NCBI GenBank assembly: GCA_003666385.1 | Contig: QPIN01000056.1 | Coordinates: 1 to 64,000 of the forward strand | From: Methylococcales symbiont of Hymedesmia sp. n. MRB-2018 | Lineage (GTDB): Bacteria > Pseudomonadota > Gammaproteobacteria > Methylococcales > Methylomonadaceae | DNA length: 64,000 nucleotides | Direction: 5' to 3' | Shown: positions 12,277 through 37,715 of the stretch, in pieces | Layout of the letters: each line of letters starts with the position of its first letter | Numbering within the stretch: position 1 is the first letter of the stretch | Position numbers and translations under genes: made by a program | The notes under the pieces: model-generated | What the model was told of the DNA's origin: nothing | Databases searched by the model: none | The model's input: only the letters and a program-made list of their open reading frames with translations

Positions 12277-13170
12277 ATGAATACAAATCAAAACAATTAT
12301 ACAATAGGCAGTTTGTTTGCTGGTGTAGGTGGTATATGTCATGCTTTCAAAGCGGTGTCTTGCGAGGTGTTATGGGCAAATGAAATAGACTCTAATGCTT
12401 GCAAAACTTATAAATTAAATAATAAAAACACTCATTTATTTGAGTGCGATATAAAAGATCTGCATCATAGAGAATTACCAAGCATAGACATTCTAACTGC
12501 CGGCTTCCCTTGTCAGTCGTTTTCACACGCTGGACATAGCAAAGGGTTTGATGATGAAAGGGGAAGGTTGTTTTTTGAAGTGCCAAAATTGCTCGCAAAA
12601 TTACAGCCAAAGGCGTATTTATTAGAAAATGTTCGCGCCCTCGCCACGCACGACAAAGGCAACAGTTTAGACATTGTTAAAAATGCAATATTGCGGTTGG
12701 GGTATTCATTTATTCCCTTTGTTTTAAACGCCGCAAAATACACAAGTATACCGCAGGGCAGAGAACGTATTTATATGCTTGGATTTAGCAACGAGGCAGA
12801 TTTTTACTTTGATGCTCCAACAAAAATAAACGATAAAAAGATTACTGCCTGCCCCTTGTCAAACGCATTTTACATCCCCCAAGAAACCGAAAACACCCCA
12901 AAACCAATTAAAGATTTTTTGCAAAACAATGTGGATGAAAGTTATTTTTACACAGACAAAAATAACCACATCCACAAAAAATCCGCCAAAAATGCCAAGC
13001 GGAATGACACTGTATATCAATATCGCCGCTACTATGTGCGGGATAACAAATCCAATGTTTGCCCCACGCTCACTGCTAATATGGCAGGTGGCGGACATAA
13101 TGTCCCCATTATTTTAGACGGCGGGCGACCACGGAAGCTTACGCCTAAAGAGTGTTTTAATTTGCAATGA
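12277..13170 (+). pseudogene. C5-cytosine DNA methyltransferase, truncated before the C-terminal motif X
   Basis: Motifs GSLFAGVGGI, GFPCQSFSHAG, LLENVRAL, QGRERIYMLG. Ends abruptly at LTPKECFNLQ* where the family continues GFP...GN. Confidence 0.8.
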
Positions 13171-13951: not shown

Positions 13952-14695
13952 ATGGCTATAATCTTGCCAAAAGGAACAACAAACTATCAGGAAATGCATA
14001 ATGGAGTTTCTATAATTGGTATTTCTTATTCAGACAATCAAGTTAAGCAATACTCTGAACTTGTTAAAAATGCTTGTTTTGATAGTGATGGGCAGGACGA
14101 GCTGAATGCATATATAAGCTCTATTGGTGAAACTGGTTTTACATCAACTCAATCAATCCTCACAAACATTAAAGAATGGCAATTAGGAGAGGCGCTTGCA
14201 GAAGTCCATCTTGAACAATGTTTTTCTTGTCATTTCCCATGGTCTAATCGTAGAGATTTAAAAAACCCTAAATCAAGTTTATCAGGGGCTGATTTAGTTG
14301 GTTATCATAATAGTGAATTTGCTTTTGGTGAAGTAAAAACATCAGCAGAACAAAAATCACCTCCACAAGTAACCTCTAAAAGATATGATGGATTGAGTGC
14401 ACAGTTAAATAAATTATGTATCGATACAGATTTACGTCAGACAATTATTCAATATTTATTTTTTCGTCAAAAAGAAACAGTTAAATATCAAGAAGCACTG
14501 AGGACATATTTAAAAAACCAGCATAATTTTTATATATTTGGTGTCTTAGTGCGTAATACTCTGCCAAATGTAAACGATTGGAGTTATCTAAAAAATAACT
14601 TTACGGCACATAAGAAAAACAAATCTTATCTTGTTGCCTTGTATCTATCATTTGATAAATTAAGAGATTGTGTCACCAGTGGAGGTGAATCATGA
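13952..14695 (+). CDS. HamA-like (DUF1837-type) nuclease of a Hachiman/AbpAB-like system
   Basis: GADLVGYHNSEFAFGEVKTS nuclease-like motif. Overlaps the helicase gene by 4 nt (ATGA). Confidence 0.6.
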   Translation: MAIILPKGTTNYQEMHNGVSIIGISYSDNQVKQYSELVKNACFDSDGQDELNAYISSIGETGFTSTQSILTNIKEWQLGEALAEVHLEQCFSCHFPWSNRRDLKNPKSSLSGADLVGYHNSEFAFGEVKTSAEQKSPPQVTSKRYDGLSAQLNKLCIDTDLRQTIIQYLFFRQKETVKYQEALRTYLKNQHNFYIFGVLVRNTLPNVNDWSYLKNNFTAHKKNKSYLVALYLSFDKLRDCVTSGGES

Positions 14696-17600
14696 TTACT
14701 AATAAAATTTTACAAAAGATAGATGATCATTGGGCGGTAAAAGCTGTGGGTGATGATGATTTTCGCCGATCTATTTTACAAAGCGTAAAAGCAAAATTAG
14801 TGAGTAACGCTGTTGGCGAACAGCTTACCTTAGATCCAACCACCCATATTCTTGATGATGCGGATTTAAAGCGTCTAGCAATGGCATACGAAATGGCTGC
14901 AATTGAAGGGATGCATGATTTTATTAACCATTCAAATGATGATCTGTATGATCAATTTTTAGCAGGCTCTTTTAGGGCTTTTGAAATTAATAGAGTTTTG
15001 AATGATCCAGATGATGATTTTGCATTTATTTTTTATGTGTTACACCTGTCATCATTGGCTTGTTGTGGCGATTGTTGGACTGATTTAAAACACATCTATG
15101 ATGATAAATCAGAAAAAATTGAATCTATTTTATTAAGGCAGGAAACAGAGTGGGATAAGCAAATATTGTTATGTTTATTTACTTGTTGGGTAAGTTTATT
15201 TAGAAAAAACTCTTGGAATGATTTAAGTCAAATATCAAATTCAATCAATCAATTAAGAAAAGAACAAGCACAGTATGAGCAAGAGTTTTTAAAATCAAAT
15301 TCCAATAAAGAAAACCAAACTAAAGCAATAAGGTTGATGGCTCTTTATCATTGGGCAAAGGCATCTGAATTATTATCTCTATATATGCTGCAAGGAGACC
15401 CTGCTGATATTAAATCACAATTAGATAAACACTTTAATTTAGCAATTAAAATTTCAGCTGATGGCGGCGATGCTCAATTAGAAGTTTTATTGCGTTGGCT
15501 GCACGCTTGTGCAGAACAGATGATTAACGGCTCAATTTGGTGGGTTGCACGCACTATCAATTCAAAAGCAACTAAATTTATTGAAAAACTATCAAAACAG
15601 GCAAAACCACTTTTAGAGTTGCTTCCACCTCAAAGAGCAGCGCTCAAGGAAATGAATTTACTAGACCCTGCTAAAACAGCAGTGGTTGTTGATATGCCGA
15701 CATCTGGTGGTAAAACTTTATTAGCTCAATTTAAAATATTACAAGCCATTAATAATTTTGGCGAAACCAAAGGCTGGGTTGCCTACATCGCACCTACTAA
15801 AGCATTAGTGTCTCAAATTACTCGGCAATTGCGTCAAGATTTTTCACCTATTGGCATTAAAGTAGAAAAATTAAGTGGTGCTATTGAGGTTGATGCTTTA
15901 GAAGAGGATATGCTCAATGATGAGGCTAGTTTTGATATTTTAGTTTCAACGCCCGAAAAAATGCAGTTAGTATTGCGTAACCATAAAATAAAAAGACCTT
16001 TATCATTATTAGTAATGGATGAAGCTCACAATATAGAGGACGAAAGTAGAGGGCTTAGAATTGAATTATTATTGGCAACAGTTAAACAACATTATCAAGC
16101 AAAAGCTAATTTTTTGTTATTAATGCCCTATGTTGAGAATGCACAAACACTATCACGCTGGTTAGCCCATGATCGTAATGCGGGTTTATCTATTAGTTTA
16201 AGCACCAGCCCATGGAAACCAAATGAACGCATTATAGGATTAGTCACAAAGCAAAAAGGTAAAAAACGCGGTGATTGGTCAATAAAATACAAAACACTAA
16301 TCACCAGCCCTAAAACCATTCATTTAAAGGGCAAGCATAAAATTGGTGTCACAAAGCCTATTAATGATGTTACTTACAGCAGTGCTAATTTGTCTAAATT
16401 AGTAGCAGCTTGTGCTAAAAATTTTGCTAATCGTGGTACCAGCATTGTTGTTGTAAAAACTAAGCCAAACACTTGGAGTGTGGCAAAAACTATATTTGAA
16501 AATATTGATCCGTTTGAAAATATTTCAACAAATATTAAATTAGTGCAAAATTATCTTAAAGACGAAGTTGGAGTCGAATTTGAATTAATAAAAATGTTAG
16601 ACAAAGGTATTGGTATTCATAATTCAGGTCTTTCAGATGAAATAAAATCTCTAATGGAGTGGCTTACTGAAGAAGGTGAATTGAGAGTTTTATGTGCTAC
16701 CACTACAATTGCACAAGGTATTAATTTTCCAGTTTCTTCCATATTTTTACAAAGCATTGAATACCCTTATGGTAAAAAAATGTCATATAGAGAATTTTGG
16801 AATTTAGTAGGTAGAGCAGGCAGGATTGGGCAGGATAATATAGGCGTAGTTGGTATTGCTTGTGATTCAGACGAAAAAGAAAAAGAGCTAACTCACTTTG
16901 TTCAGCAAAGCACTGGAGATTTAATTTCTCGTTTAATTGGCATTCTTAAGGAGTTAGATAATCGTGGTGAATTAAATAATTTAGAAAGTATGATGTATGC
17001 TCCTCAATGGGAGGATTTTCGCTGTTATATTGCACATTTATTAAATGAGAAGAAAGAACTACAAGCAACCATAAATGAAATGGATCAAATGCTTACCAAT
17101 ACTTTTGGTTATAGCGAGCTAAAAAATACCAATCAAAATCATTCTGAGATATTACTTGAAGCTACTAAACAATACACACAAAGTATTGCAAAAAACATGG
17201 GTAGAGTTGCGCAAGCTGATATGACAGGATTTTCAGTAGAATCTGTTAAGAAAGCAGCACAAGAAATAGATCAATTAAAATATAAATTAACCACATCAGA
17301 CTGGATGCCACAAAGTTTGTTTAGCTCAACTGATAGTAAGTTACCTGATTTGTTTAGTGTTATGTTCAAAATAGAGCAATTAAACTTTTCTCATGACGAC
17401 ACACAAGGCAGAAAAAAATCTCGTATGGCTGATATAGCCAAAGCATGGATTGATGGTAAAACAATCAATGAAATTGCAATTAGTTTTTTTGAAGGCAATG
17501 ATTCTAAAAAAATATCTGAAGTTTATAATGCAATTTATAGCAAATTAGCTAATGGTGGTACATGGGGTTTATCTGCTTTAGCTTCAATATCTGGGCTGGA

Positions 17601-17895
17601 TTTTGAAGCTATGTCAGACGAACAAAAAAGACAATTGAATTTAATGCCAGCAATGCTTTATCACGGCGTTAATAATGAAGAATCAGTATTGATGCGCATG
17701 AATTCAGTTCCAAGAAGTATCGCAGATTCAATCGGTAATAATTTTAAACAGCGAACAGAAAAAAGAAATATTGCAACAGCAAGAAAATACTTAAAAAGTT
17801 TACGCAACGAAGATTGGGCTATATATAAAAGTAATTTTTTAACTGGCTCAGAATATAAAAAAATATGGCAAATATTGTCTGGTGAATTAGATTAA
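14692..17895 (+). CDS. HamB-like DEAD/DEAH helicase
   Basis: DMPTSGGKTLLAQF, LVMDEAHNIEDESRG, ATTTIAQGINFPVSS, NLVGRAGRIGQ. Coupled to the upstream DUF1837-like gene. Confidence 0.7.
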   Translation: MITNKILQKIDDHWAVKAVGDDDFRRSILQSVKAKLVSNAVGEQLTLDPTTHILDDADLKRLAMAYEMAAIEGMHDFINHSNDDLYDQFLAGSFRAFEINRVLNDPDDDFAFIFYVLHLSSLACCGDCWTDLKHIYDDKSEKIESILLRQETEWDKQILLCLFTCWVSLFRKNSWNDLSQISNSINQLRKEQAQYEQEFLKSNSNKENQTKAIRLMALYHWAKASELLSLYMLQGDPADIKSQLDKHFNLAIKISADGGDAQLEVLLRWLHACAEQMINGSIWWVARTINSKATKFIEKLSKQAKPLLELLPPQRAALKEMNLLDPAKTAVVVDMPTSGGKTLLAQFKILQAINNFGETKGWVAYIAPTKALVSQITRQLRQDFSPIGIKVEKLSGAIEVDALEEDMLNDEASFDILVSTPEKMQLVLRNHKIKRPLSLLVMDEAHNIEDESRGLRIELLLATVKQHYQAKANFLLLMPYVENAQTLSRWLAHDRNAGLSISLSTSPWKPNERIIGLVTKQKGKKRGDWSIKYKTLITSPKTIHLKGKHKIGVTKPINDVTYSSANLSKLVAACAKNFANRGTSIVVVKTKPNTWSVAKTIFENIDPFENISTNIKLVQNYLKDEVGVEFELIKMLDKGIGIHNSGLSDEIKSLMEWLTEEGELRVLCATTTIAQGINFPVSSIFLQSIEYPYGKKMSYREFWNLVGRAGRIGQDNIGVVGIACDSDEKEKELTHFVQQSTGDLISRLIGILKELDNRGELNNLESMMYAPQWEDFRCYIAHLLNEKKELQATINEMDQMLTNTFGYSELKNTNQNHSEILLEATKQYTQSIAKNMGRVAQADMTGFSVESVKKAAQEIDQLKYKLTTSDWMPQSLFSSTDSKLPDLFSVMFKIEQLNFSHDDTQGRKKSRMADIAKAWIDGKTINEIAISFFEGNDSKKISEVYNAIYSKLANGGTWGLSALASISGLDFEAMSDEQKRQLNLMPAMLYHGVNNEESVLMRMNSVPRSIADSIGNNFKQRTEKRNIATARKYLKSLRNEDWAIYKSNFLTGSEYKKIWQILSGELD

Positions 17896-17902
17896 ATAAA
17901 AA

Positions 17903-19008
17903 ATGAAAACATTAAATACCAATTTACATAAGGCTAATAAAGCCAAGAAAGATGAGTTTTATACTCAATTAGCGGATATTGAAAAAGAAGTAAAGCATTA
18001 TAAAAAACACTTTAAAAATAAAGTGGTGCTGTGTAATTGTGATGATCCAAGAGTGAGTAATTTTTTTCATTATTTTTCTTACAATTTTGAAAGTTAGAGC
18101 TTAAAAAGTTGATTGCTACTTGCTATAAAAATCAACAGATGGATTTATTCAGCCAACACGATTGTGAAAAAGCCATTTATTTAGAATACGAAGGCGATAA
18201 AAATAACAACAAAATCCCTGATACTGAGGAAATTGGTATTAAGCATTTTAAAGGCGATGGTGATTTTAGAAGCGATGAATGTATAAAATTATTAAAACAA
18301 GCCGATATTGTGCTTACTAATCCGCCGTTTTCTCTGTTTAGAGAGTATGTTACACAGTTGGTAGAATACGATAAAAAGTTTTTGATTATTGGCAATATGA
18401 ATGCCATAACCTATAAAGAAACTTTTAAATTGATTAAGGAAAATAAATTATGGTTAGGTGCCAGTATTCATAGTGGCGATAGAGAGTTTGGCGTTCCCAA
18501 AGATTATCCATTACATGCAGCTAGTAGTAGAATTGATGAAAATGGCAATAAATTTATCAGAGTTAAAGGGGTGCGTTGGTTTACTAATTTAGACTACAAA
18601 GAAAGACACGAAGACCTGATTTTGTATAAAACCTACAACCAAGCAGACTACCCAAAATACGATAATTACGATGCGATTAATGTGGATAAAACCAAAGAAA
18701 TACCTGTGGACTATAAAGGTGCTATGGGTGTGCCGATTACCTTTATGGATAAATATAATCCTGAGCAGTTTGAGATTTTAGGGATAACTGCTGGGCGAGA
18801 TGAGTTTGAGTGTCGTCCTACAAAACGCTATAAAAATGCTATCCAAGTCAATCAAAACGGCTCCACAGCAAATGGGAGTAAGGCAAATACGCGGTCAACG
18901 CTACTCTATTCCAGAAAACCCAACGGGACTTATTATACTGCTGATAATGTAAATGGATATTTATCTATACTATACGCAAGAATTTTAATCAAAAACAAAA
19001 AACTATAA
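17903..19008 (+). pseudogene. EcoRI-family adenine-specific DNA methyltransferase, split by a single-nucleotide frameshift
   Basis: ORF 17903-18097 (NKAKKDEFYTQLADIEKEVKHYKKHFKNKVVLCNCDDPRVSNFFHYF) and ORF 18109-19008 (ADIVLTNPPFSLFREYV). Adding one A after GAA near 18091 joins the frames as NFEKLELKKLIATCYKNQ. Confidence 0.8.
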
Positions 19009-21744: not shown

Positions 21745-23067
21745 ATGGATTTTAAGCAAGCCTACAACCAACCCAATTATCTTAATTTTTTAAGCGAAAA
21801 GTTTAATTTTTCTAAAACCTTAACGCCTATTACAATCAACAATACAGAGGTTAAAACCTTTAAGTCATTAGGATATATAACAACGGCTGATGACAAACAA
21901 TTACCCGTTTTTGAAATCCACATCAAACCCAATACCAAATTATCACGCAATCGGGCTGGCTTGCGCAATCTAGTTGCCAAACAAATCCCACCAGAAGATG
22001 GCGCTTTAGCAGTTTATGTGGATGGTGAAAACAAACAGTGGCGTTTTAGTTTTATTGCCATTGAATATAAATTCACCGAAGATGGTTTAGAAAAACAGCA
22101 AACAGCCAGTAAACGCTTTACCTATCTTTTAGGTGAAAATGCCCAAATTAGAACTGCCAAACAGCGTTTTGAAACCCTTAATAAAACCTCAACATTAGCA
22201 GACTTAAAAGCCGCTTTTGCGGTTGAGCAACTTAACAAGGATTTTTATAAACAATTATACGATTGGTATAACCACGCCAAAGAAAAAGTGATTTTCCCCA
22301 ATGACGAAAACGCCAAAAGCCATATTGAGGATAGTTTAATCCGCTTTTTAACACGGATTTTATTCGTCTGGTTTCTCAAAGAAAAACACCTAATTAACAA
22401 AGATTTATTTGATTTAACCAAACTCAAAAACTTGATTAAATATGAAGAAGACAGCAGTTTCTACAAAGCTATTTTACAAAATCTATTTTTTGCCACGCTA
22501 AATCGTCAAATAAAAGACCGTAGTTTTCGCCGCACCACCAATGGCAAGCCCAATAACACCAATTATTTAGCCGCCAATATTTATCGTTATCAAAATTATT
22601 TTCAAAACAACGATGAGCAAGAAATTATGGATTTATTCAAGCAAACCCCGTTTTTAAACGGCGGCTTATTTGAATGTTTAGACCGCGAGGCAACAGATGA
22701 AGAAAAATCGGCCTACGACCAAGACAAAACCGTCCGCAAAATTGGCAGTGCCATTCGCATTGATGGCCTTTCTGATAGAAAAAATAATGCATTAGATTTT
22801 GACAATGCCTTATTTTTTAACACTAACGAAACAGGCTTATGTGATTTATTCAAGCAATACCAATTTACCGTAGAAGACGCACTCACCGATGCAGGATTGC
22901 AAGCAAGCCACGCCGAAGTAACCATGGAACCCGCCACCCGCGTCGAACTCAACCTCGTCAACGCCGAAAAATTTATGAAACTAATTGAACGCCTAGAAGA
23001 CCTAGACGACACCCAAGAGGTTTATCACAATGCTGATATTTCTGATGAAGTGATGGCTCAGTTATAA
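21745..23067 (+). CDS. Chimeric ORF: N-terminal region of a type IIG (Eco57I-like) R-M protein joined to the C-terminus of YebC
   Basis: Residues 1 to about 375 resemble Eco57I-type N-terminal regions. Last 64 aa [63 protein letters not shown] match the YebC/PmpR C-terminus. Confidence 0.75.
22876..23067 (+). pseudogene. yebC: yebC 3' fragment in the chimeric ORF
   Basis: Translated match to the YebC C-terminal domain ending ISDEVMAQL*; local base composition is higher in GC than the preceding segment. Confidence 0.75.
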
Positions 23068-23076
23068 AATTATTCC

Positions 23077-25143
23077 ATGCCAAAAATAAAAGACATTCCA
23101 AAAGTTGAACGCCCAAGAGAGCGATTATTGCAAAAAGGCGCTAACGCATTATCCAAAACCGACCTTTTAGCGATTTTGCTTGGAAGTGGCATTAAAGGTG
23201 TAAATGTAGAAGAGTTATCTACTCAGATTATTAATAAATTTGGCAAAAATTTTCTTAATGTCAGCATTAAAGATTTAACATCTGTTAAAGGTATCGGCGA
23301 AGTTAAGGCGCTGCAAATACATTCCGCTATTGAACTGGTTAAGCGTTTTGATGAGCCAAAAAATACCAATCAATTAACCTTTATGGATTTTTGTGCTGGG
23401 GTTGGTGGTGGTCGTCTGGCTTTAGATAACCTAGGTATGCAGTGTGTTGGATTTTCTGAAATTGATGAAAATGCTGAAAAAACTTATCGTCTATTATTCA
23501 ATGATAAAGGCAAAAATTACGGTGATTTAACCAAAATAAATGCAGATAAATTGCCTGATTTTGATGTGATGATTGCAGGTTTTCCTTGTCAGGCTTTTTC
23601 TGTTTTAGGCAAGAGGCAAGGCATTTATGACAAGGTGCAAAAGAAAGGGGAAATCATTTTTCACTTGATAGAATTTTTAATTGCAAAGTCTGTTAAATTT
23701 TTTATTTTTGAAAATGTAAAGGGTTTGATAGGTCACGATAACGGCTTAACTTTAAAAATAATTTTAGATGAATTAGATAAAGCTGGATATTTTGTTAAAT
23801 GGCAAATGTTAAATAGCATTGATTATGGCACGCCACAAATGAGAGAGCGTATTTATTTTGTAGGAGTAAAAAAGGAACTGTTAGGAGATAATAACTTTGA
23901 TTTTGATTTTCCTCAGAAGTTGACTAAAAAATCCAATGTAACTGATTTTTTAATTGATAATGTAGAACTAGATTTTAACGATAAGCAGCAAACATACAAA
24001 ACCTTTCAAAGATACTTAGAAAACAAATACAATAAAGATAAATTTAGCGTTGCAGAATTATTAAAAGAGGAAAATTTGGTTATAGATACTCGGCAATCAG
24101 ATTTAAGGAAATATTACAACAGAGTGCCAACTTTAAGGCTAGGAAGACACGGTATTTTGTATGTTAGAAATGGTAAATTTAGAAAATTATCTGGTTATGA
24201 ATCTTTTTTATTACAGGGGTTTGGTAAAGAAAAAGCCCAAAAAGCTAGAGACAATATTTTAGATATACACTTACTAAAACAAGCTGGCAATGCAATGACT
24301 GTTAGCACGGTTCAGGCGATTGCCGCTAAGGTGTTGAAGTTTATCAATAATTTAGAGATGGTCAATATGAACAAAAAACAAAAAATAGGTTCAAAGACAG
24401 CGAAAGACGGGTTTAAAAATGAATTGGGTGTTGTTGACGCTTTTAATTGCTGGAAAACTAATGATTCTGCTCAAAAATGGTTAATGGCTATGGATTACCA
24501 TTTAGAAGATATTGAGCATGTTGAAGCCCATCAAATTAGCGGATATAAAGCAGATGTACAAGTAGAAATTAAAATATCAATCAAATTAAAACATTTAACA
24601 GATGTGCAAAACTTACAAGTTAAATTGGTAACTAATGATGAAGATAAAAAATTATCAGGCAAAAATCAAATTGATAAAAGATGGGTGGAAACCTATCAGG
24701 AATTGTGGAATATTCCTAAAAATGTGGTAAAAATTTTAAAGCACTTTACAGGCGAATTACCGCCGCATATAGATAACGCAAGAGACCCTAGGCGGATGTT
24801 TATTAATGAATTATCGCAGCAGGATAGAGTAGCATTATTTGATTTTTTAAAAGCTAATCAGTTACTAATAGTTAGTGATATATTAAAAGGTAGAGGTAAA
24901 CTTGCTGCTGAATGGATGTTGGTAATTGTAAGAAATAGAGACTATAAAATCACTCACTGGGCATTAAAATCCATCAATGTTGTTTGTAATTTTTTTGGCA
25001 ATGGTGAGATAGAAATATCACCACAAGGAAGCATTAAAATTGGTAAGATTTTAATGCAAAGAAAAGGCGGAGATGGTGGCAGGCCTAGTGCAAATATGTT
25101 GCAATTTAACATAGACCCAACAAAATTAATAGACATAATGTAA
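23077..25143 (+). CDS. Three-domain fusion: RadC/UPF0758 N-terminal HhH domain + C5-cytosine methyltransferase + HinP1I-like type II restriction endonuclease
   Basis: RPRERLLQKGANALSKTDLLAILLGSGIKG...VKGIGEVKALQI (RadC N-term); FMDFCAGVGGGRLAL, GFPCQAFSVLGK, ENVKGL, QMRERIYFVG, QAGNAMTVSTVQAIA (C5 MTase); GSKTAKDGFKNE...HFTGELPPH...RRMF...LKGRGKLAAEW...QRKGGDGGRPSANMLQFNIDPT (as recalled for R.HinP1I). Confidence 0.85.
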   Translation: MPKIKDIPKVERPRERLLQKGANALSKTDLLAILLGSGIKGVNVEELSTQIINKFGKNFLNVSIKDLTSVKGIGEVKALQIHSAIELVKRFDEPKNTNQLTFMDFCAGVGGGRLALDNLGMQCVGFSEIDENAEKTYRLLFNDKGKNYGDLTKINADKLPDFDVMIAGFPCQAFSVLGKRQGIYDKVQKKGEIIFHLIEFLIAKSVKFFIFENVKGLIGHDNGLTLKIILDELDKAGYFVKWQMLNSIDYGTPQMRERIYFVGVKKELLGDNNFDFDFPQKLTKKSNVTDFLIDNVELDFNDKQQTYKTFQRYLENKYNKDKFSVAELLKEENLVIDTRQSDLRKYYNRVPTLRLGRHGILYVRNGKFRKLSGYESFLLQGFGKEKAQKARDNILDIHLLKQAGNAMTVSTVQAIAAKVLKFINNLEMVNMNKKQKIGSKTAKDGFKNELGVVDAFNCWKTNDSAQKWLMAMDYHLEDIEHVEAHQISGYKADVQVEIKISIKLKHLTDVQNLQVKLVTNDEDKKLSGKNQIDKRWVETYQELWNIPKNVVKILKHFTGELPPHIDNARDPRRMFINELSQQDRVALFDFLKANQLLIVSDILKGRGKLAAEWMLVIVRNRDYKITHWALKSINVVCNFFGNGEIEISPQGSIKIGKILMQRKGGDGGRPSANMLQFNIDPTKLIDIM

Positions 25144-25253: not shown

Positions 25254-25334
25254 GAAACCAAAATTGACTAGATGGTCTATAAACTCTACAACCTAAGCAC
25301 CGCTGAAATCAAAATCATTGAGGCTGAAAAATGA
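25254..25334 (+). pseudogene. Type IIG C-terminal tail remnant A
   Basis: ETKID*MVYKLYNLSTAEIKIIEAEK*; the stop TGA overlaps the ATG of the following TPR gene. Confidence 0.7.
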
Positions 25335-26638
25335 ATAAAAAAGCAGTGAAATTTTTCAATCAAGGCAATGATTATTTTGAAGCAAAAGAATTTGATCTCG
25401 CCATTCAGAATTACAACAAAGCTATTAAATTAAAGCCCGATTCTGCTGAGGCTTTTAGCAATCGTGGGATGGCTTATGCCGATAAAGGAGAATTTGATCG
25501 TGCCATCAAAGATTTTGACCAAGCTATTAAATTAAACCCCAAGTTTGCTGAGGCTTTTAACAGTCGTGGGCTGGCTTATGACGGGAAAGGTGAACTTGAT
25601 CGCGCCATTGAGGATTACAACGAAGCTATTGAATTAAACCCTAAATACGCTGAGGCTTTTAGCAATCGTGGGGTGGCTTATGGCAAGAAAAGAAAATTTG
25701 ACCGTGCCATTGAGGATTACAACAAAGCTATTACATTAAACCCTGAATACGTTAAGGCTTTTTACAATCGTGGGCTGGCTTATGTCCGGAAAGGAGAACT
25801 TGATCGTGCCATCAAAGATTTTGACCAAGCTATTAAATTAAACCCTGAATACGCCGATGCTTTTAACGGTCGTGGGGTAACTTATGTTCAGAAAGAAGAA
25901 CTTGATCGTGCCATCAAAGATTTTGACCAAGCTATTAAATTAAACCCTGAATACGCCGATGCTTTTAACGGTCGTGGGGTAACTTATGGCAAGAAAGGAG
26001 AAGCTGATCGTGCCATTCAGGACTTTGACCAAGCTATTGAATTAAACCCTGAACACGCTGGTGCTTTTAACGGTCGTGGATTGACTTACCGCAAAATAGG
26101 AAAAGAAAAAGAGGCAATAGAAGATTTTCAAAAGGCAAATGAATTAGATCCGACTGTTATTCCACAAAAGCAAGTTGAGGAAACAGAAAAGAAAATTGAA
26201 GAAACAAAAAAGGAAGTTAAAGAAGTCCAAGATTTTCAAAGTATTTTGACCGACTTAAAAACCGAGTATACAAAAGACGAGAAGCGGTGGTTTTGGGCAA
26301 GCACTATTTTTACTGTGCTTGTTTTTGTGGGTTTATTGGCTTTAACCTTTTACTATAAAGTGGATTATAAAATCTCATATTCCCTCTATATTTTTTCATC
26401 AATCATCACTTTTGTTGTCATTCGTCAATATACCAATGCCAAACAACTTAGGATTGAAAGCAGTAACCGCCTAGCAATGGCAAAAATGTTTGAAAAAATA
26501 CAAGCAAGCAAAGACAATCAGCACTATCAAGCTTTTATACCTAAAATAATTGATAGCATCACTTACTCAATGTATAAAAACCACAAAGAATCAACAGTGA
26601 AAATTATTGAAGAATTAAAATCAATATTCAAAAAATAG
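25331..26638 (+). CDS. TPR-repeat protein with C-terminal transmembrane region
   Basis: Tandem 34-aa TPRs (AEAFNSRGLAYDGKGELDRAIEDYNEAIELNPK) followed by two hydrophobic helices (WASTIFTVLVFVGLLALTFYY; ISYSLYIFSSIITFVVIRQY). Confidence 0.9.
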   Translation: MNKKAVKFFNQGNDYFEAKEFDLAIQNYNKAIKLKPDSAEAFSNRGMAYADKGEFDRAIKDFDQAIKLNPKFAEAFNSRGLAYDGKGELDRAIEDYNEAIELNPKYAEAFSNRGVAYGKKRKFDRAIEDYNKAITLNPEYVKAFYNRGLAYVRKGELDRAIKDFDQAIKLNPEYADAFNGRGVTYVQKEELDRAIKDFDQAIKLNPEYADAFNGRGVTYGKKGEADRAIQDFDQAIELNPEHAGAFNGRGLTYRKIGKEKEAIEDFQKANELDPTVIPQKQVEETEKKIEETKKEVKEVQDFQSILTDLKTEYTKDEKRWFWASTIFTVLVFVGLLALTFYYKVDYKISYSLYIFSSIITFVVIRQYTNAKQLRIESSNRLAMAKMFEKIQASKDNQHYQAFIPKIIDSITYSMYKNHKESTVKIIEELKSIFKK

Positions 26639-26972: not shown

Positions 26973-27947
26973 ATGGCTCAAGCAGATTTACTGGTAAATT
27001 TAGTTAAAAATGCAAGTAATGGCGACCAGTTAGGAGTGCGTAAGATTGCGCAAAATTTAATCCAAGAAGAGAAAAATAAAGGTCACAGGATATTAGCAGA
27101 TAGATTGATAGAGGCACTAAAGCCAACCGTTAAAAAATCTATAAATAAAATAAGCAATAACAATTCTAATGCTGATTTATATTTTGAAACAACACCAGAA
27201 AGAGGCTTAAACAGCTTGGTATTGCCAGATAAAATTCGCGAACAAATACAAGAGCTAGTTGAAGAGCAACATAGAAGCGAGTTATTACATTCTTACAATC
27301 TAAGAGCAAGAAATAGTTTATTGTTTGCAGGCCCTCCGGGTAATGGCAAAACGACATTAGCAGAAGCATTAGCGCACGAATTGATGTATCCATTATTAGT
27401 GGTGCGTTATGAAAATTTAGTCGGTAGTTATTTAGGCGAAACCTCTGGGCGTTTAAAGTCAGTATTGGATTATGCTAAAACAATGCGCTGTGTGTTATTT
27501 TTTGATGAATTTGAAACGCTGGCAAAAGAGCGAGGCGATACACACGAAACAGGGGAGATTAAAAGAGTAGTGAGTTCACTGTTATTACAATTAGATAGCT
27601 TGCCTGATTATGTTGTAGTCGTTACTGCAAGCAATCACCCGGAGTTGTTAGATAGGGCAGTATGGCGGCGTTTTCAAGTTAGAGTAGAATTGCCATTACC
27701 CACAAGAACACAGCTAACAGATTTTATTACTCAAATAAGCAAACGCTGTAATGTTGAATTTGGACTAGCCGCAGAAACAATCGCCAAACATTTGAAAGGG
27801 TTAAATTTTGCCGAAGCCGAAGAGTTTTGTTTAGGCATTGTTAGAAAAGCCATTTTAGATAAAAAGCAAAATAACGCCAAAACTATTACCAATCTCAAAT
27901 TAACCCAATATAGAAGCAGGCTAAAACCAGTCACTAATAAGGATTAA
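26973..27947 (+). CDS. AAA+ ATPase (IetA-like)
   Basis: LLFAGPPGNGKTTLAEALA (Walker A), CVLFFDEFETLAKERG (Walker B), SNHPELLDRAVWRRF. Lies directly upstream of a subtilase. Confidence 0.8.
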   Translation: MAQADLLVNLVKNASNGDQLGVRKIAQNLIQEEKNKGHRILADRLIEALKPTVKKSINKISNNNSNADLYFETTPERGLNSLVLPDKIREQIQELVEEQHRSELLHSYNLRARNSLLFAGPPGNGKTTLAEALAHELMYPLLVVRYENLVGSYLGETSGRLKSVLDYAKTMRCVLFFDEFETLAKERGDTHETGEIKRVVSSLLLQLDSLPDYVVVVTASNHPELLDRAVWRRFQVRVELPLPTRTQLTDFITQISKRCNVEFGLAAETIAKHLKGLNFAEAEEFCLGIVRKAILDKKQNNAKTITNLKLTQYRSRLKPVTNKD

Positions 27948-27949
27948 TT

Positions 27950-30670
27950 ATGGCGGATAATTTGCCTTTATTGTTTTTTCCAAATGCAAGAAGAGCAACC
28001 CCAGAAGCAGCATCAGGATTTCCACCATCTCAACCACATTTTCCAACACATAATATTCAAGCACAACGCTTAAAAACAAAAATTGATAAATTACAAGCCA
28101 GTATTAATATGGCTGGATTAGAGCCAGAAACGGTTTTGGTGATAGAAATTATAGGGCGTATTGAAAATTTTAAAAATGCAATTGATAGAACAGGTGGACT
28201 AGAGTGGATGGGGGAGTGGGATATTGATGATATTGAGGCTGATGATAATTTTTATGAGCCGCCCACAATAGGTGTTGATTTTTTCAAAAATAAAATTGAT
28301 GGCATTGCCACACGAGTGCAATCCAAGGAGATTCAAGAACAACTAATAGAGATAGGATTTATTAACCACAAAGGAGAAATTATTGGCGATAATTCGTTAT
28401 TAATTGGCTTTGAAAATAATATTATTGATGCAATAAATCAAGCAAAAAATAAACCTTTATCTGGTAGATTGTTTTTGTCGTTCAGTAATCAACAGGGAAT
28501 GCAAGAGTTGTTATCGCTATTCAAAAAATGGCAAAAAGGCGAGCAATTTCCAATGGGTCAAACAAAGTGGCGTGATGTATTTACTCAAATTAGAGATATT
28601 CGTAAATGGGGCATTCAAGAAGCATTAAAAGACACTAGAATGGTAGAGCGTTGGAATGATGATTTTATAAACCATCCAGATGATTCAAACAAAACTTTTC
28701 AAATTGAATTGTTTTATCGCAGTAATCAAAACAAAAGATCAAATAATGAAGACAAAATAAAGCAATTATTACAAAACCAAGGTGGCGAGATTATTGCCAC
28801 TATAGATAAACCAGAAATAGCTTTTCATGCAGTTAAAGCAAAATTACCTACTAATAAAATACGTGATTTATTAGATAATTTAGATTCATCAGACACAACA
28901 GATATAGAATTATTTAACTTTTCAGGCATTATGTATTGCTATCCAACGGGGCAAAATATATCTACGCCAAGTGATGATGATATTGACGCTAAACATATTG
29001 AATTAACAGAATTACCAAAATCAGATTTTCCACCTATAGTTGCCATTCTTGATGGTGTGCCAAATACTCAACATATCGCATTAAAAAATAGATTATTACT
29101 GGATGATCCTGATAATTTATCTGCCACTTATCAGACGGGTAAAAGAGGCCACGGCACAGCCATGGCATCACTGGTAATTCATGGTGATTTATCCAACCCA
29201 ACAACCTTAACAAGCAATGTTTATCATTTGCCAGTTATGCAATATAAACAAGACGATGAAGGTTTTCCTGATGAAATATTTTTTGAAGATAGGATTGAGC
29301 GAGCAGTTAGGCGTATATTTGAAGGTGAAGGTGATACACCTGCACAAGCACCACATATAAAAATTATCAATATTTCATTAGGTGATCCAGATCGTCTATT
29401 TATTCATTTTCCCAGTCCATGGGCGCGACTATTGGATTATTTATCTGATAAATATCAAGTGTTGTTTTGTGTCAGTGCTGGCAACTATGTGGATGACTTT
29501 AATATGGACATCCCTTATGGAGAATTTAGTGCATTATCGAACAATGATAAAAACAAGCATATTGTAAAATGTATCAGCAAACAGTTATCACAAAGACGAC
29601 TATTATCACCTGCTGAATCGTTAAATTCATTGACAATCGGTGCTTTAAATATGGATGATTCTAGCGGATTTGCACTTGCTAATAACATTGATTTATTGCC
29701 AGATAATTTATTTAGCCCTCTTTCGCGTTTTGGCTATGGATTTAGAAATTCCATAAAGCCAGAGATATATTTTGCAGGTGGTAAGCAACTATACATCTCT
29801 CCTCATGTTGATAGTGCAACAGAATGCAAGCTTAACGAATACAACATAAAACCAGGGCAACAAGTGGCAGCAGATGGCTCACAACAAGGCGAATTATCAC
29901 AAACAAAATACACTGCTGGCACAAGCAATGCTTGTGCGTTAGCCACCCATAGTGGTGCTAGAATTTATGAAGTATTATCAAAATTACAAGCAGAGAATAA
30001 TGAAAATATAGATGATGAGTTAATGGCGGTGCTAATTAAAGCTTTATTGGTGCATGGTGCTAAACAAGATAATGCTAGCAAGCAAATATTAAAAGAATTA
30101 AAAACTGCTAATAATTCAAGAGTATTTAAGAAAGTTATCAATCGTTATTTAGGTTATGGCTCGGTTGATATTGAGAGGGTTTTGGCTTGCACCGAGCAAC
30201 GCGGCACAGTGTTAGGCAGTGGTAAAATTAAACAGAACGAAACGCATGAATATATTTTTCCAATACCTTATGGGTTGTCAGGCGAAAAAGTTTGGCGAAG
30301 CATGACTATTACTTTGGCGTGGTTTTCACCAATTAATACTAATCATAGAAATTTAAGACAAGCTAAATTAAGTTTTGAACCGCCAAAAAATAACGATTCT
30401 GTATTGAATATTAGTAGAATAGATTCAAATCATCATATAGTCAATAAAGGTACTGTTCAACATGAAATTTTGACAGGTAAAAATAAAATATTAGCCTTTC
30501 AAGATAATGAACATATCAAATTACATATAAATTGTAAAAAAGATGCAATAGAAACTTTAGATAAAGAGATATGTTACGGTCTGGCGGTTACTTTAGAGCT
30601 TGAAGATGGTGTGAGTATTGATATTTACAATCAAATTAAAAATAGAATACAACAAGTTATTCAAGTTTAA
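27950..30670 (+). CDS. Subtilisin-like S8 serine protease (IetS-like)
   Basis: Catalytic triad contexts VAILDGVPN, RGHGTAMASL and AGTSNACALATHSGA. Confidence 0.85.
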   Translation: MADNLPLLFFPNARRATPEAASGFPPSQPHFPTHNIQAQRLKTKIDKLQASINMAGLEPETVLVIEIIGRIENFKNAIDRTGGLEWMGEWDIDDIEADDNFYEPPTIGVDFFKNKIDGIATRVQSKEIQEQLIEIGFINHKGEIIGDNSLLIGFENNIIDAINQAKNKPLSGRLFLSFSNQQGMQELLSLFKKWQKGEQFPMGQTKWRDVFTQIRDIRKWGIQEALKDTRMVERWNDDFINHPDDSNKTFQIELFYRSNQNKRSNNEDKIKQLLQNQGGEIIATIDKPEIAFHAVKAKLPTNKIRDLLDNLDSSDTTDIELFNFSGIMYCYPTGQNISTPSDDDIDAKHIELTELPKSDFPPIVAILDGVPNTQHIALKNRLLLDDPDNLSATYQTGKRGHGTAMASLVIHGDLSNPTTLTSNVYHLPVMQYKQDDEGFPDEIFFEDRIERAVRRIFEGEGDTPAQAPHIKIINISLGDPDRLFIHFPSPWARLLDYLSDKYQVLFCVSAGNYVDDFNMDIPYGEFSALSNNDKNKHIVKCISKQLSQRRLLSPAESLNSLTIGALNMDDSSGFALANNIDLLPDNLFSPLSRFGYGFRNSIKPEIYFAGGKQLYISPHVDSATECKLNEYNIKPGQQVAADGSQQGELSQTKYTAGTSNACALATHSGARIYEVLSKLQAENNENIDDELMAVLIKALLVHGAKQDNASKQILKELKTANNSRVFKKVINRYLGYGSVDIERVLACTEQRGTVLGSGKIKQNETHEYIFPIPYGLSGEKVWRSMTITLAWFSPINTNHRNLRQAKLSFEPPKNNDSVLNISRIDSNHHIVNKGTVQHEILTGKNKILAFQDNEHIKLHINCKKDAIETLDKEICYGLAVTLELEDGVSIDIYNQIKNRIQQVIQV

Positions 30671-30719: not shown

Positions 30720-30851
30720 TCAGTTAAAATCCTCACTGCCAAAAAAGACGGCAAAGACACCACCACTTTAGAAGCCCAAATAGATAAAATAGTGTATAAA
30801 CTCTACAACCTAAGCACCGCTAAAATAAAAATTATTGAGGCTGAAAAATGA
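30720..30851 (+). pseudogene. Type IIG C-terminal tail remnant C
   Basis: KSVKILTAKKDGKDTTTLEAQIDKIVYKLYNLSTAKIKIIEAEK*; overlaps the ATG of the TPR gene at 30848. Confidence 0.75.
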
Positions 30852-32461
30852 ATAAAAAAGCAGTGAAATTTTTTAATCAAGGCAATGATTATTTTGAAGC
30901 AAAAGAATTTGATCTCGCCATTCAGGATTACAAGCAAGCTATTAAATTAAACCCCAAGTTTACTGAGGCTTTTAGCAATCGTGGGATGGCTTATGCCGAT
31001 AAAGGAGAATTTGATCGTGCCATTGAGGATTACAACGAAGCTATTGAATTAAACCCTAAATACGCTGAGGCTTTTAACGGTCGTGGGTCGGCTTATGACG
31101 GGAAAGGAGAATTTGATCGTGCCATTGAGGATTACAACGAAGCTATTGAATTAAACCCTAAATACGCTGAGGCTTTTAACAATCGTGGGGTGGCTTATGG
31201 CGAGAAAAGAGAATTTGATCGTGCCATCAAAGATTTTGACCAAGCTATTAAATTAAACCCTGAATACGCCGATGCTTTTAACGGTCGTGGGGTGGCTTAT
31301 CGCAAGAAAGGAGAATTTGATCGTGCCATTCAGGACTTTGACCAAGCTATTGAATTAAACCCTGAACACGCTGAGGCTTTTAACAATCGTGGGTCGGCTT
31401 ATGGCGAGAAAGAAGAGTTTGATCGTGCCATTGAGAATTACAACCAAGCCATTAAATTAAAACCTGATTTTGCTGGTGCTTTTAACAATCGTGGGACGGC
31501 TTATCGCAAGAAAGGAGAATTTGATCGTGCCATCAAAGATTTTGATCAAGCTATTAAATTAAACCCTGAATACGCTGAGGCTTTTAACAATCGTGGAACG
31601 GCTTATGCCGAGAAAGGAGAACTTGATCGTGCCATTGAGGATTACAACCAAGCCATTAAATTAAAACCTGATTTTGCTGGTGCTTTTAACAATCGTGGGT
31701 TGGCTTATGACGAGAAAGGTGAATTTGATCGTGCCATTGAGGATTACAACCAAGCTATTAAATTAAACCTCGAGTTTGCTGAGTCTTTTTATAATCGTGG
31801 GACAACTTATGGCAAGAAAGGAGAAGCTGATCGTGCCATTCAGGACTTTGACCAAGCTATTGAATTAAAGCCCGATTTTGCTAAGGCTTTACACAATCGT
31901 GGAGTGACTTATCGCAAAATAGGAAAAGAAAAAGAGGCAATAGAAGATTTTCAAAAAGCAAATGAATTAGATCCGACTGTTATTCCACAAAAGCAAGCTG
32001 AAGAAACAAAAAAGAAAATTGAAGAAACAAAAAAGGAAGTTGAAAAAGTCCAAGATTTTCAAAGTATTTTGACAGATTTAAAAACCGAGTATACAAAAGA
32101 CGAGAAGCGGTGGTTTTGGGCAAGCACTATTTTTACTGTGCTTGTTTTTGTGGGTTTATTGGCTTTAACCTTTTATTATAAAGTGGATTATAAAATCTCA
32201 TATTCCCTCTATATTTTTTCATCAATCATCACTTTTGTTGTCATTCGTCAATATACCAATGCCAAACAACTTAGGATTGAAGGCAGTAACCGCCTGGCAA
32301 TGGCAAAAATGTTTGAAAAAATACAAGCAAGCAAAGACAATCAGCACTATCAAGCTTTTATACCTAAAATAATTGATAGCATCACTTACTCAATGTATAA
32401 AAACCACAAAGAATCAACAGTGAAAATTATTGAAGAATTAAAATCAATATTCAAAAAATAG
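30848..32461 (+). CDS. TPR-repeat protein with C-terminal transmembrane region (paralog of 25331)
   Basis: Near-identical N- and C-terminal segments, larger number of TPR units. Confidence 0.9.
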   Translation: MNKKAVKFFNQGNDYFEAKEFDLAIQDYKQAIKLNPKFTEAFSNRGMAYADKGEFDRAIEDYNEAIELNPKYAEAFNGRGSAYDGKGEFDRAIEDYNEAIELNPKYAEAFNNRGVAYGEKREFDRAIKDFDQAIKLNPEYADAFNGRGVAYRKKGEFDRAIQDFDQAIELNPEHAEAFNNRGSAYGEKEEFDRAIENYNQAIKLKPDFAGAFNNRGTAYRKKGEFDRAIKDFDQAIKLNPEYAEAFNNRGTAYAEKGELDRAIEDYNQAIKLKPDFAGAFNNRGLAYDEKGEFDRAIEDYNQAIKLNLEFAESFYNRGTTYGKKGEADRAIQDFDQAIELKPDFAKALHNRGVTYRKIGKEKEAIEDFQKANELDPTVIPQKQAEETKKKIEETKKEVEKVQDFQSILTDLKTEYTKDEKRWFWASTIFTVLVFVGLLALTFYYKVDYKISYSLYIFSSIITFVVIRQYTNAKQLRIEGSNRLAMAKMFEKIQASKDNQHYQAFIPKIIDSITYSMYKNHKESTVKIIEELKSIFKK

Positions 32462-34582: not shown

Positions 34583-35500
34583 TTAAGTTGCAAGATGTTT
34601 ACCAATGTAGCCAATATAGGTTTTTTCATCCTTTTCTATAAAATAAATCCGATACTTATTAGGCAGGCTTTTTATATGATTTTGAAAAAATTCTTTTTCA
34701 CCTTCAATAGAAAACATTCGCATATTTTTTAGCGTTGGATTGTTGCAAACAGTTTGACTTTCACCACTATGATTAAAATCAGTGACTAATTTTCGCTTGG
34801 TTTCGATGTCTCGTAAGATGCTTACGGCTTGTTGAAAAATTATTTTATCTATTCTTTTTATTTGATTTTCTATTTCAGGGCAAAATTTTAAAATCTCTGG
34901 AAAGTTTTTATCTCTATTCTCCCAAAAATTATCTTGGGTGATATTGAGTTTATTTTCAGATTCTATGTTTTTAAAAAATGATTGATGTTCATTTAAATGA
35001 TCAGAAAGTGAAGCGTGTTTAATGCTTATCTCATTTTCAACAATCGCATCATTAATAATTTGAGTTTTTTGGATGGATATATAAGGTTTATTCCAATGTT
35101 CATCTGTATTGAAACTAACAGCGAGTGTATCCCATATATCACAGCAGGCTAAACCACCATTGGTTGATTGTTGTTTATAAAAATACTCGCAACTATTTTG
35201 TTGTTCGCCTTGTTCTAAATCATCATCTTTAATAATAGGGGTATCAATTTTTACAATAGCATTATTAACAAAACTTTTTAGCCTAGTTCGGAAATCTCTG
35301 TTAGTTTGCTGCCCTATAAATTGCTGAAAATTCGTATTTTCTAAAATAGAATATGACTTAAAGTCATTGTTCATTCTAATTTGATTAAACCTTCGTTTTT
35401 TTAACTTCGCTAATAATTCAAAAAACTTACCAAAATTTGCAACGGCTTGATGTTCATTGAGTGGTAAAGATAGTTCATTAAAAACAGAAAAATTTACCAT
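34583..35500 (-). CDS. Hypothetical protein, third gene of a DUF262-ATPase operon (candidate effector)
   Basis: 305 aa ORF overlapping the ATPase gene by 7 nt; no recognised domain. Confidence 0.65.
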   Translation of the reverse strand: MVNFSVFNELSLPLNEHQAVANFGKFFELLAKLKKRRFNQIRMNNDFKSYSILENTNFQQFIGQQTNRDFRTRLKSFVNNAIVKIDTPIIKDDDLEQGEQQNSCEYFYKQQSTNGGLACCDIWDTLAVSFNTDEHWNKPYISIQKTQIINDAIVENEISIKHASLSDHLNEHQSFFKNIESENKLNITQDNFWENRDKNFPEILKFCPEIENQIKRIDKIIFQQAVSILRDIETKRKLVTDFNHSGESQTVCNNPTLKNMRMFSIEGEKEFFQNHIKSLPNKYRIYFIEKDEKTYIGYIGKHLAT

Positions 35501-36600
35501 AATAACTTATCCAATTGACTATCCCATTCATCAAAAAAATCTTTTGGATAGTCACTTAAATCACCATTTTCACCAATATTAATGGGCTGTGCAATGGTAT
35601 CTAAACTCTCTTTTTCTTTGCTAAAAAAGTAAACTTGACTTTCATCCTTGTTAATAATTTTATTTTTAGTTGCCACTCTTAAACCATTTAGAAAATGGTC
35701 GCTATGCGTTTCTACCATTATCTGCACGCCATTATGAGCGGCGATGGCGCATAATTGGGCTATTTTTGACTGTCCTTTGGGATGCAAATGAGATTCTGGA
35801 TTTTCAATGATTAAAAAATCTCCAGGTTTTGATTTCAAAATTGCCACAATCACAGGCAATACATAAGTTAAACCAAACCCAACATTGAGTGGATTTTGTT
35901 CACTTGTGGTCAATAAATTTTTATCATCAGCATAATAATATTGATAAGTTAATTTAGCGCTTTGTGTGGCAGCATCAGCGTTTGCTGATATTTTTACATT
36001 ATCACTAATTTCATTCAGCCATTTTTCAGTATTTTCTAAAAGATTTTGGGTTTTGCTATCTGTGTGTTTTAACGCCGAAATATTTAAAATATCATTAGAT
36101 TTTTCTGCTAAATAATGGGCTGTAAACTCACCTTTTGTACCAATTGAATTATTTTCAATGGCAGTTTCTGAATATGGGAATGTTAGATCGGGTGCAATTC
36201 TATCTGTGTTTAAGTAATAAAAATGCTCCTCAAAAAAATCTATTAACTTATCGTTATTTCTCTCATCTCTATTATCATATTCAAAAGATTCTGCCTTAAA
36301 TTTAGAATCAAGCTCTATGCCAGAAAAAGTATTGCTATAGCCAAACTCAAAACCAATATTTTCCCCTAAAGAGTTTTGATGTAATAAAGACTTTTTATCA
36401 CCTAATTCAGTTGTAAATGTATAGGGTTTATTTATTGGCTGGTGATAAAAGTTAATATTATCTCGCATTAGCAAAAATATTTGAATAAGCGATGATTTAC
36501 CACTGCTATTAACCCCTGAAATAAGGGTTAAATTACTCAAATTTAAATCAATCTCCTTGAGGCTTTTAAAGTTTTTTATTTTTATCTTGTCTAATTTCAT
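35494..36600 (-). CDS. ABC/OLD-like AAA ATPase (DUF3696-type)
   Basis: LISGVNSSGKSSLIQIF (Walker A), FLIIENPESHLHPKGQSKIAQL (Walker B/D-loop), ETHSDHFLNGLR. Confidence 0.8.
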   Translation of the reverse strand: MKLDKIKIKNFKSLKEIDLNLSNLTLISGVNSSGKSSLIQIFLLMRDNINFYHQPINKPYTFTTELGDKKSLLHQNSLGENIGFEFGYSNTFSGIELDSKFKAESFEYDNRDERNNDKLIDFFEEHFYYLNTDRIAPDLTFPYSETAIENNSIGTKGEFTAHYLAEKSNDILNISALKHTDSKTQNLLENTEKWLNEISDNVKISANADAATQSAKLTYQYYYADDKNLLTTSEQNPLNVGFGLTYVLPVIVAILKSKPGDFLIIENPESHLHPKGQSKIAQLCAIAAHNGVQIMVETHSDHFLNGLRVATKNKIINKDESQVYFFSKEKESLDTIAQPINIGENGDLSDYPKDFFDEWDSQLDKLLW

Positions 36601-37715
36601 GATGCCATTACCTCTTTAATCAAAAGATTAATAACCTTAAATCTAGTTTCTTTTGCTGTTTTTCCACTGGTGCCTTTGGTGATTGATTCAAAAAATTCTG
36701 AGTTTTCATTTAATAATAAGCCTTTTAATTTTTCAACAAAAATACTTCTGTTTTTCAATAATAATTCTTTGTTCTCCACCTTATTAAAGCAAACAGTCAA
36801 AACATCAAATAAAGACAAGTTAACCAATTTATTTTTATTTGAATCTGCAATAGAACGACTAAACCTATGATTTTCACCTAGCATTTTTTTAGAAAAATTT
36901 AGTGTCTCTATTAATTTATTTTTTAATATTTCTAACTCTTCTGTATTTTTTTTATCTAACTCTATCATCGCCAAATCTAAAAAATTTGCCATTGTTTTAA
37001 ATTGTTCTTCGTGGAGTATTTGAAAAGCCATAAAGCGTAAAATCAATTCTTGTCCAGCCATTCTTTTATTGGAAATGCCCACAATTTCTTTAAAAATGCC
37101 ACCCTCAGCTATTGTTTGTAAAAACTTAACCCCGTCGCCTTTTTGATTAAGTGCTTGCCTAATTTCCTGAGGTTTTAAAGAGATCCCACCTGTATTAATA
37201 CGATTAAAGATAGAGTATCTAACTTCCATCGGAGTTTGTGCTTCTATTTGATAGGTAATAAACTGCGTATCATCAATAGTTCTCAACATTCCCCTGCTTA
37301 AATCGCTATATTTTTTACCATTCAACTCTATTAAAAACTCTAACCCTGATAGTTTTAGTTGTTTTTTTCCTGTTTCAACAAAAAAACTTCTAATGGTTGA
37401 TATTCTTTGTAAGCCATCAATCACCATCCATTTTTCAGGGTTTTGAACATCAAAATAAAAAACAGGCAATGGTAGTTTTAATAATATAGATTCAATCAAT
37501 CGGCTTTTTTGTTTATTTGTCCATAAGTTTTCGTGTCGTTGATAATCGGGAATACCTATTTCACCCTCTTTTAAGCGCTTAATGATTGATGGCAGTAATA
37601 TTACTCTATTAGCAACAGTTATATCTTTAACAGAAAATGGGCTAATAATATCCTGATCGCTACCAATGTCGTCATCCGTTTTTTCTATTCTCTCTTTTTC
37701 TTCTTGGTTACTCAT
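36597..37715 (-). CDS. DUF262 domain protein
   Basis: DYQRHENLWTNKQKSRLIESILLKLPLPVFYF and VIDGLQRISTIRSF. Confidence 0.8.
   Translation of the reverse strand: MSNQEEKERIEKTDDDIGSDQDIISPFSVKDITVANRVILLPSIIKRLKEGEIGIPDYQRHENLWTNKQKSRLIESILLKLPLPVFYFDVQNPEKWMVIDGLQRISTIRSFFVETGKKQLKLSGLEFLIELNGKKYSDLSRGMLRTIDDTQFITYQIEAQTPMEVRYSIFNRINTGGISLKPQEIRQALNQKGDGVKFLQTIAEGGIFKEIVGISNKRMAGQELILRFMAFQILHEEQFKTMANFLDLAMIELDKKNTEELEILKNKLIETLNFSKKMLGENHRFSRSIADSNKNKLVNLSLFDVLTVCFNKVENKELLLKNRSIFVEKLKGLLLNENSEFFESITKGTSGKTAKETRFKVINLLIKEVMAS

Follow-up and report, generated by a model that had tools for sequence, protein, structure and literature searches.

Can one gene carry a complete type II restriction-modification (R-M) system behind one half of a RadC protein, and if so, from which sources were its parts joined and what might the RadC half contribute? 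The question arises from a 688-aa open reading frame (23077..25143, + strand, ATG to TAA, without interruption) in the 64,000-nt stretch of the sponge symbiont contig analyzed here (the window). A preliminary description, made from the sequence alone, had read it as a single polypeptide combining a RadC N-terminal helix-hairpin-helix (HhH) domain, a C5 methylase and a HinP1I-like endonuclease. Here this reading was examined by profile, structure and genome comparisons.

Domain architecture of the fusion protein

The three parts, all on the + strand, are a RadC/UPF0758 N-terminal HhH domain (RadC-N; aa 1–97, Pfam core 4–78; 23077..23367), a C5 methyltransferase (M; aa 101–420; 23377..24336) and an R.HinP1I-type endonuclease (R; aa 436–687; 24382..25137). 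Pfam matches were UPF0758_N at aa 4–78 (E 3.6e-23), DNA_methylase (PF00145) at aa 101–420 (E 1.6e-66, profile positions 2–323 of 324) and R-HINP1I (PF11463) at aa 472–684 (E 5e-80, profile positions 1–207 of 208), while NCBIfam returned dcm (3.4e-76) and the RadC family (9.5e-21), the latter covering the first ~90 aa only. PDB sequence searches matched aa 436–687 to R.HinP1I (1ynm, E 2.3e-77) and aa 95–419 to M.HhaI (E 5e-42), and PADLOC called both a Type II MTase (2e-98) and a Type II REase (5e-93). All of these lie far beyond what chance would give, and the Pfam, NCBIfam and PDB matches together confirmed the domains, their order and the resemblance to HinP1I given in the preliminary description. 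It had also placed a complete methylase where the RadC JAB domain normally follows, and indeed there was no Pfam match to PF04002 (JAB, HxH motif) in the fusion protein; with UPF0758_N present but PF04002 absent, the protein is not filed as a RadC. The methylase retains PCQ (aa 170–172), ENV (212–214), RER (256–258) and GN (404–405), and motifs I, IV, VI, VIII, IX and X of a C5 DNA methyltransferase accompany the full-length PF00145 match. Its target-recognition signature, DTRQSDLR..VPTLRLGRHG (aa 337–359; 24085..24153, +), is unlike the M.HhaI-type signature.

In the AlphaFold model, M and R formed separate confident folds, the N-domain was helical with weaker confidence and an unbroken helix ran through the M-R joint (aa 409–445). 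The structure search that had been proposed as a check, run with Foldseek on the fusion model, returned HinP1I and M.HhaI, in agreement with the profile search. The modelled N-domain on its own looks like an HhH domain, its top matches being the HhH domains of Hef/XPF, LigA and DisA, none with a significant E-value.

Joining of the methylase and the endonuclease

The R domain had 455 relatives in a scan of 84,980 species, and the analysis below covers the best 80. In nearly all of these 80 with a neighbouring M, the two genes were separate or overlapped by a few bases, so that M and R being normally encoded apart, as first stated, was broadly right. In-frame joins nevertheless recur: M and R share one frame of 578–610 aa at five loci among the best 80 of 455 (L030, L035, L036, L038 and L047). 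Four of these carry a Campylobacterota label; the fifth, L036, is unplaced but clusters with them in the R tree. The closest M-R relative among the 80 (L027, from a mussel thiotroph, 72% identity) is decayed, yet in frame across the M-R joint, and a congener of the host (G160) carries a decayed M-R fragment that is likewise in frame through it. Because both run through the joint in frame, the M-R join is real and older than the host genome, and with the five Campylobacterota loci and these two decayed relatives it is not unique to the window. The three-part form (RadC-N, M and R), which had been put forward as an unusual architecture, was found in no other genome examined. The M-R joint is backed by two related loci and the RadC-M joint is seen in a single MAG contig.

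An in-frame ATG at 24367..24369 (+) would begin a stand-alone R and is preceded by Shine-Dalgarno (SD)-like pairing of -4.6 kcal/mol, compared with -5.6 for L027 and G160, -3.7 to -7.8 for the Campylobacterota loci and a background median of -0.9; upstream of 23077 there was no clear SD (+0.9). The R start codon is kept in the in-frame cases, and since most of them retain a plausible ribosome site before it, R may also be translated separately. For the window, the claim of a single polypeptide therefore stands as one open reading frame, but with the fair ribosome site at 24367 it may not be the only product.

As separate observations, a HinP1I-type R was present on three viral contigs, and decayed HinP1I-type R genes lay beside mgtE-like genes at two loci (L016 and L022) from two different families (G417 and G160).

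Origin of the RadC domain

The RadC-N of the window shared 66–72% identity with RadC-methylase proteins of Pseudothioglobaceae-like genomes and of G397, and 57–62% with those of Patescibacteria, versus 34–49% with ordinary RadC; L110, in which RadC stands alone with a Mod-type methylase as its neighbour, showed 49%, and the RadC of the host 40%. It is thus of an R-M-linked RadC type rather than an arbitrary scrap. That the radC of the host had recently been duplicated was rejected (38–40% identity), and across 237 genomes of the host's family the other RadC-N sequences listed reached at most 42% identity, in frames of ordinary or shorter RadC length. A phage or plasmid origin was also rejected, as no record in either collection covered at least 80% of the fusion protein (P0001) with its RadC part; nor did any plasmid or phage record cover at least 80% of the RadC-methylase query. 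Homology to L027 starts at the methylase start, leaving the RadC-N segment without a counterpart there, and because this closest M-R relative lacks it, RadC-N was added at the methylase start separately from the M-R join. Differences between RadC-N and G397 by codon position (30/12/49) were mostly at the third.

Genomes of the Pseudothioglobaceae-like group, of other Gammaproteobacteria and of Patescibacteria hold a recurring and apparently undescribed set in which a complete RadC (UPF0758_N and JAB) precedes a C5 or D12 type II methylase, associated with NgoFVII, HpaII and AlwI types. The C5 cases include a 571-aa protein (G724, L158:2180-3892; RadC N-domain, JAB and methylase) adjoining an NgoFVII-type gene and a Patescibacteria protein (G933, L168:1495-3168) adjoining RE_HpaII, whereas RadC is joined to a D12 adenine methylase and adjoins RE_AlwI in G397 (L134:4914-6692) and G667 (L163:1755-3575, - strand), with G770 and G848 being alike. 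These RadC-methylase fusions retain an intact JAB motif; incomplete or damaged cases occur in G717, G671, G725 and G711. In the genomes sampled, such fusions occurred in 1 of 229 Gammaproteobacteria, 4 of 286 Patescibacteria and 6 of 83 members of f117, the Pseudothioglobaceae-like family that takes in Ca. Thiodubiliella endoseptemdiera, the mussel thiotroph from which L027 comes; of the six in f117, three are attached to a whole or damaged C5 methylase and three are partial. With the window counted, at least four R-M types have such fusions. The window gene has an R-M-linked RadC N-domain before its methylase but no JAB between HhH and methylase, and is therefore a JAB-less derivative of these fusions and not a typical member.

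Further loci in the set are L157, L159, L160, L174 and L176. Several of the R-M-linked RadC genes of f117 (L158, L159, L160, L161 and L164) stand directly after an lpdA-like gene, as read from the sequence, a site that looks like an insertion hot spot. At L157:892-2736 the RadC-C5 methylase frame continues in frame into ribosomal protein S5, a rearrangement or an assembly error.

In Patescibacteria, a complete LexA-like repressor (LexA DNA-binding domain and S24 peptidase) precedes a C5 methylase at L170:895-2451, where the next gene resembles an NgoFVII-type nuclease fragment, and by reading, L171 and L173 are LexA-C5 methylase fusions as well. SOS-linked control of R-M is possible for these proteins. 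A search of the open-access literature found no description of RadC- or LexA-methylase fusions.

Functional state and predicted target

Highly conserved columns were kept at 83 of 85 positions in R (against 80 relatives) and 73 of 77 in M (against 40 relatives). D493, Q514 and K516, conserved across the 80 R relatives, align with the catalytic residues D62, Q81 and K83 of HinP1I. Differences from L027 at the three codon positions were 0.217/0.099/0.379 for M and 0.192/0.133/0.450 for R, the pattern of a sequence under purifying selection, although L027 is decayed. The fusion protein therefore has the look of a functional type IIC-like enzyme, with both domains in one open reading frame. The activity of R is less certain, since the window R forms a long branch in the R tree (1.07 vs a median of 0.18), with a unique short insertion near aa 521–527 and F529K beside the conserved G-F-N-Q motif.

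GCGC is the target of both HinP1I and M.HhaI. HinP1I-family nucleases pair with two methylase recognition types, and the partner of R.HinP1I itself in the R tree is L107 (100/98 support), whose methylase has the recognition-domain type of the window methylase; L048, with an M.HhaI-type methylase, falls inside the window-type R clade. GCGC specificity, originally offered as inferred from resemblance, is strengthened by the grouping of R.HinP1I with L107, and from this kinship GCGC is the likely target of the window enzyme, including for cutting (G^CGC). Avoidance of GCGC was rejected as proof of activity: the window holds 66 sites where 114 would be expected, yet the depletion of CCGG and GGCC is stronger still, so that the GCGC deficit is not diagnostic.

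Host genome and surrounding island

The fusion gene lies on a 77.8-kb contig of a 2.2-Mb genome (99.1% complete, 0.08% contamination). An ammonia/methane monooxygenase subunit A (PF02461, 1.1e-124) encoded there makes it probable that the host oxidises methane and has a genome of reduced size. The island that holds the gene sits between uvrA and ihfB/rpsA (gene names read from their sequences) and carries the PADLOC defence systems PDC-M23AB (13952-17895), IetAS (26973-30670) and NsnABC (34583-37715). The IetAS genes are flanked by two similar TPR-repeat genes (25331-26638 and 30848-32461) with near-identical C-terminal membrane segments.

Several R-M genes of the island are truncated. A C5 methylase at 12277-13170 ends at profile position 287 of 324 and an EcoRI-type methylase at 18109-19008 covers positions 64–345, without 1–63, both being remains of other R-M systems; this agrees, for the genes checked, with the earlier remark that the fusion carries the only apparently undamaged methylase of the island. 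Immediately upstream, ending 9 bp before the fusion gene, a truncated chimera (21745..23067, +) runs without a change of frame from a IIG-type N-terminal fragment into the C-terminal 66 aa of a YebC (22867-23064). The YebC piece shares 48% identity with the host yebC versus 82–89% with many f117 genomes, and since it is far closer to f117 than to the host, at least part of the island probably derives from these Pseudothioglobaceae-like bacteria. The genome of L027 is placed in f117 because its yebC match coordinates are those of G716, a member of that family. That one chromosomal 'yebC 3'-radC 5'' scrap lies behind both chimeras was rejected in that form, because in G409, the only f117 genome whose sequence was followed far enough past yebC, the next gene is purL-like, and because RadC-N is of the R-M-linked type. 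The YebC piece remains a separate foreign fragment.

Interpretation

The reading that we favour, and regard as moderately probable, is that of a type IIC-like M-R enzyme of the HinP1I (GCGC) family which carries the HhH half of RadC from a RadC-methylase fusion, with the HhH aiding DNA binding. The C5 domain would methylate GCGC on the host DNA and the C-terminal PD-(D/Q)xK domain would cut unmodified GCGC on incoming DNA, while the HhH domain may lend the methylase sequence-independent DNA affinity, and translation from the internal start probably yields R as a product of its own as well.

The main rival concerns the role of the HhH: by recombination within a scrambled defence island, the 5' part of a RadC-methylase gene may have landed before an ordinary M-R gene, replacing only its start codon and leaving RadC-N as a passive in-frame relic. 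We consider this rather unlikely, although the homology of L027 from the methylase start exactly, the accidental IIG-YebC chimera next door, the abundance of truncated R-M genes in the island and the missing JAB half would all fit it; the coincidence of the RadC-M joint with a domain boundary, the mainly third-position differences from G397 and the recurrence of RadC-methylase fusions with at least four R-M types argue against it. A chimera created by assembly at that same joint is very improbable: the three-part form was seen once and G671 has a suspicious RadC-methylase-rpsE join, but the window joint is in frame at a domain boundary, well inside a long contig of a nearly complete genome with little contamination.

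It is similarly doubtful, to about the degree of the passive relic, that there is no functional M-R polypeptide and that R is made mainly from 24367, the open frame reflecting a methylase stop lost from an overlapping pair. Overlap by a few bases is the rule for most HinP1I-family pairs and where M and R are in frame an ATG persists, preceded by SD-like pairing stronger than background, yet with no stop between M and R the joined product must also arise whenever M is translated, and the model helix is continuous across the joint. Inactivity or decay of a gene retained by chance in a shrinking genome seems improbable; L027 and G160 are pseudogenes and the R branch is long, whereas the window gene has kept an intact 688-codon frame within an AT-rich island together with its conserved columns, catalytic residues and selection signature.

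Returning to the type IIC-like reading with an HhH aid, a broader and still more tentative idea than the passive relic is that type II methylases repeatedly gain N-terminal modules from DNA-damage genes (complete RadC, its HhH half, complete LexA) which steer or regulate methylation at damaged, branched or new DNA, coupling modification to the state of repair. If so, the protein described here would represent the most compact form, a single chain holding the targeting domain together with modification and restriction. The function of RadC is disputed, and the RadC-methylase set gives it a concrete protein context open to ordinary methylation assays; its recurrence points to a little-noticed habit of RadC joining R-M methylases. 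The family may also be a source of single-chain GCGC enzymes.

Comparison with known systems

Type IIC systems combine endonuclease and methyltransferase activities in one protein (PMC4081073). C5 methylase-nuclease fusions made in the laboratory serve as a model for type IIC origin, and the HinP1I family offers natural cases at several stages: separate, overlapping, joined in frame, and joined with an extra domain. With the HinP1I R-M family (PF11463; PDB 1ynm, 2fkc) the window protein shares the whole R domain, the equivalents of D62/Q81/K83 and a methylase whose recognition-domain type matches that of the nearest neighbour of HinP1I; it differs in the single M+R frame, the added RadC-N, the short R insertion and F529K. 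The Campylobacterota in-frame pairs have the same M-R order and single frame without a RadC domain. The RadC-methylase fusions (L158, L168, L134 and L163) likewise set a RadC N-domain before a type II methylase but, unlike the window protein, keep JAB and have their R (NgoFVII, HpaII or AlwI type) encoded apart, and their methylase is either a C5 enzyme of another type or a D12 adenine methylase. The engineered RM.Eco29kI fusion, which kept 80% of MTase and a third of REase activity, is also a C5 methylase and a nuclease in one functional polypeptide, though laboratory-made, in R-M order and with a GIY-YIG nuclease (PMC3039593). M.SsoII-type methylases resemble the window protein as C5 enzymes with an additional DNA-binding domain at the N-terminus, which the close homologue M.NlaX lacks, but theirs is a transcription regulator and not a RadC HhH (PMC3039593).
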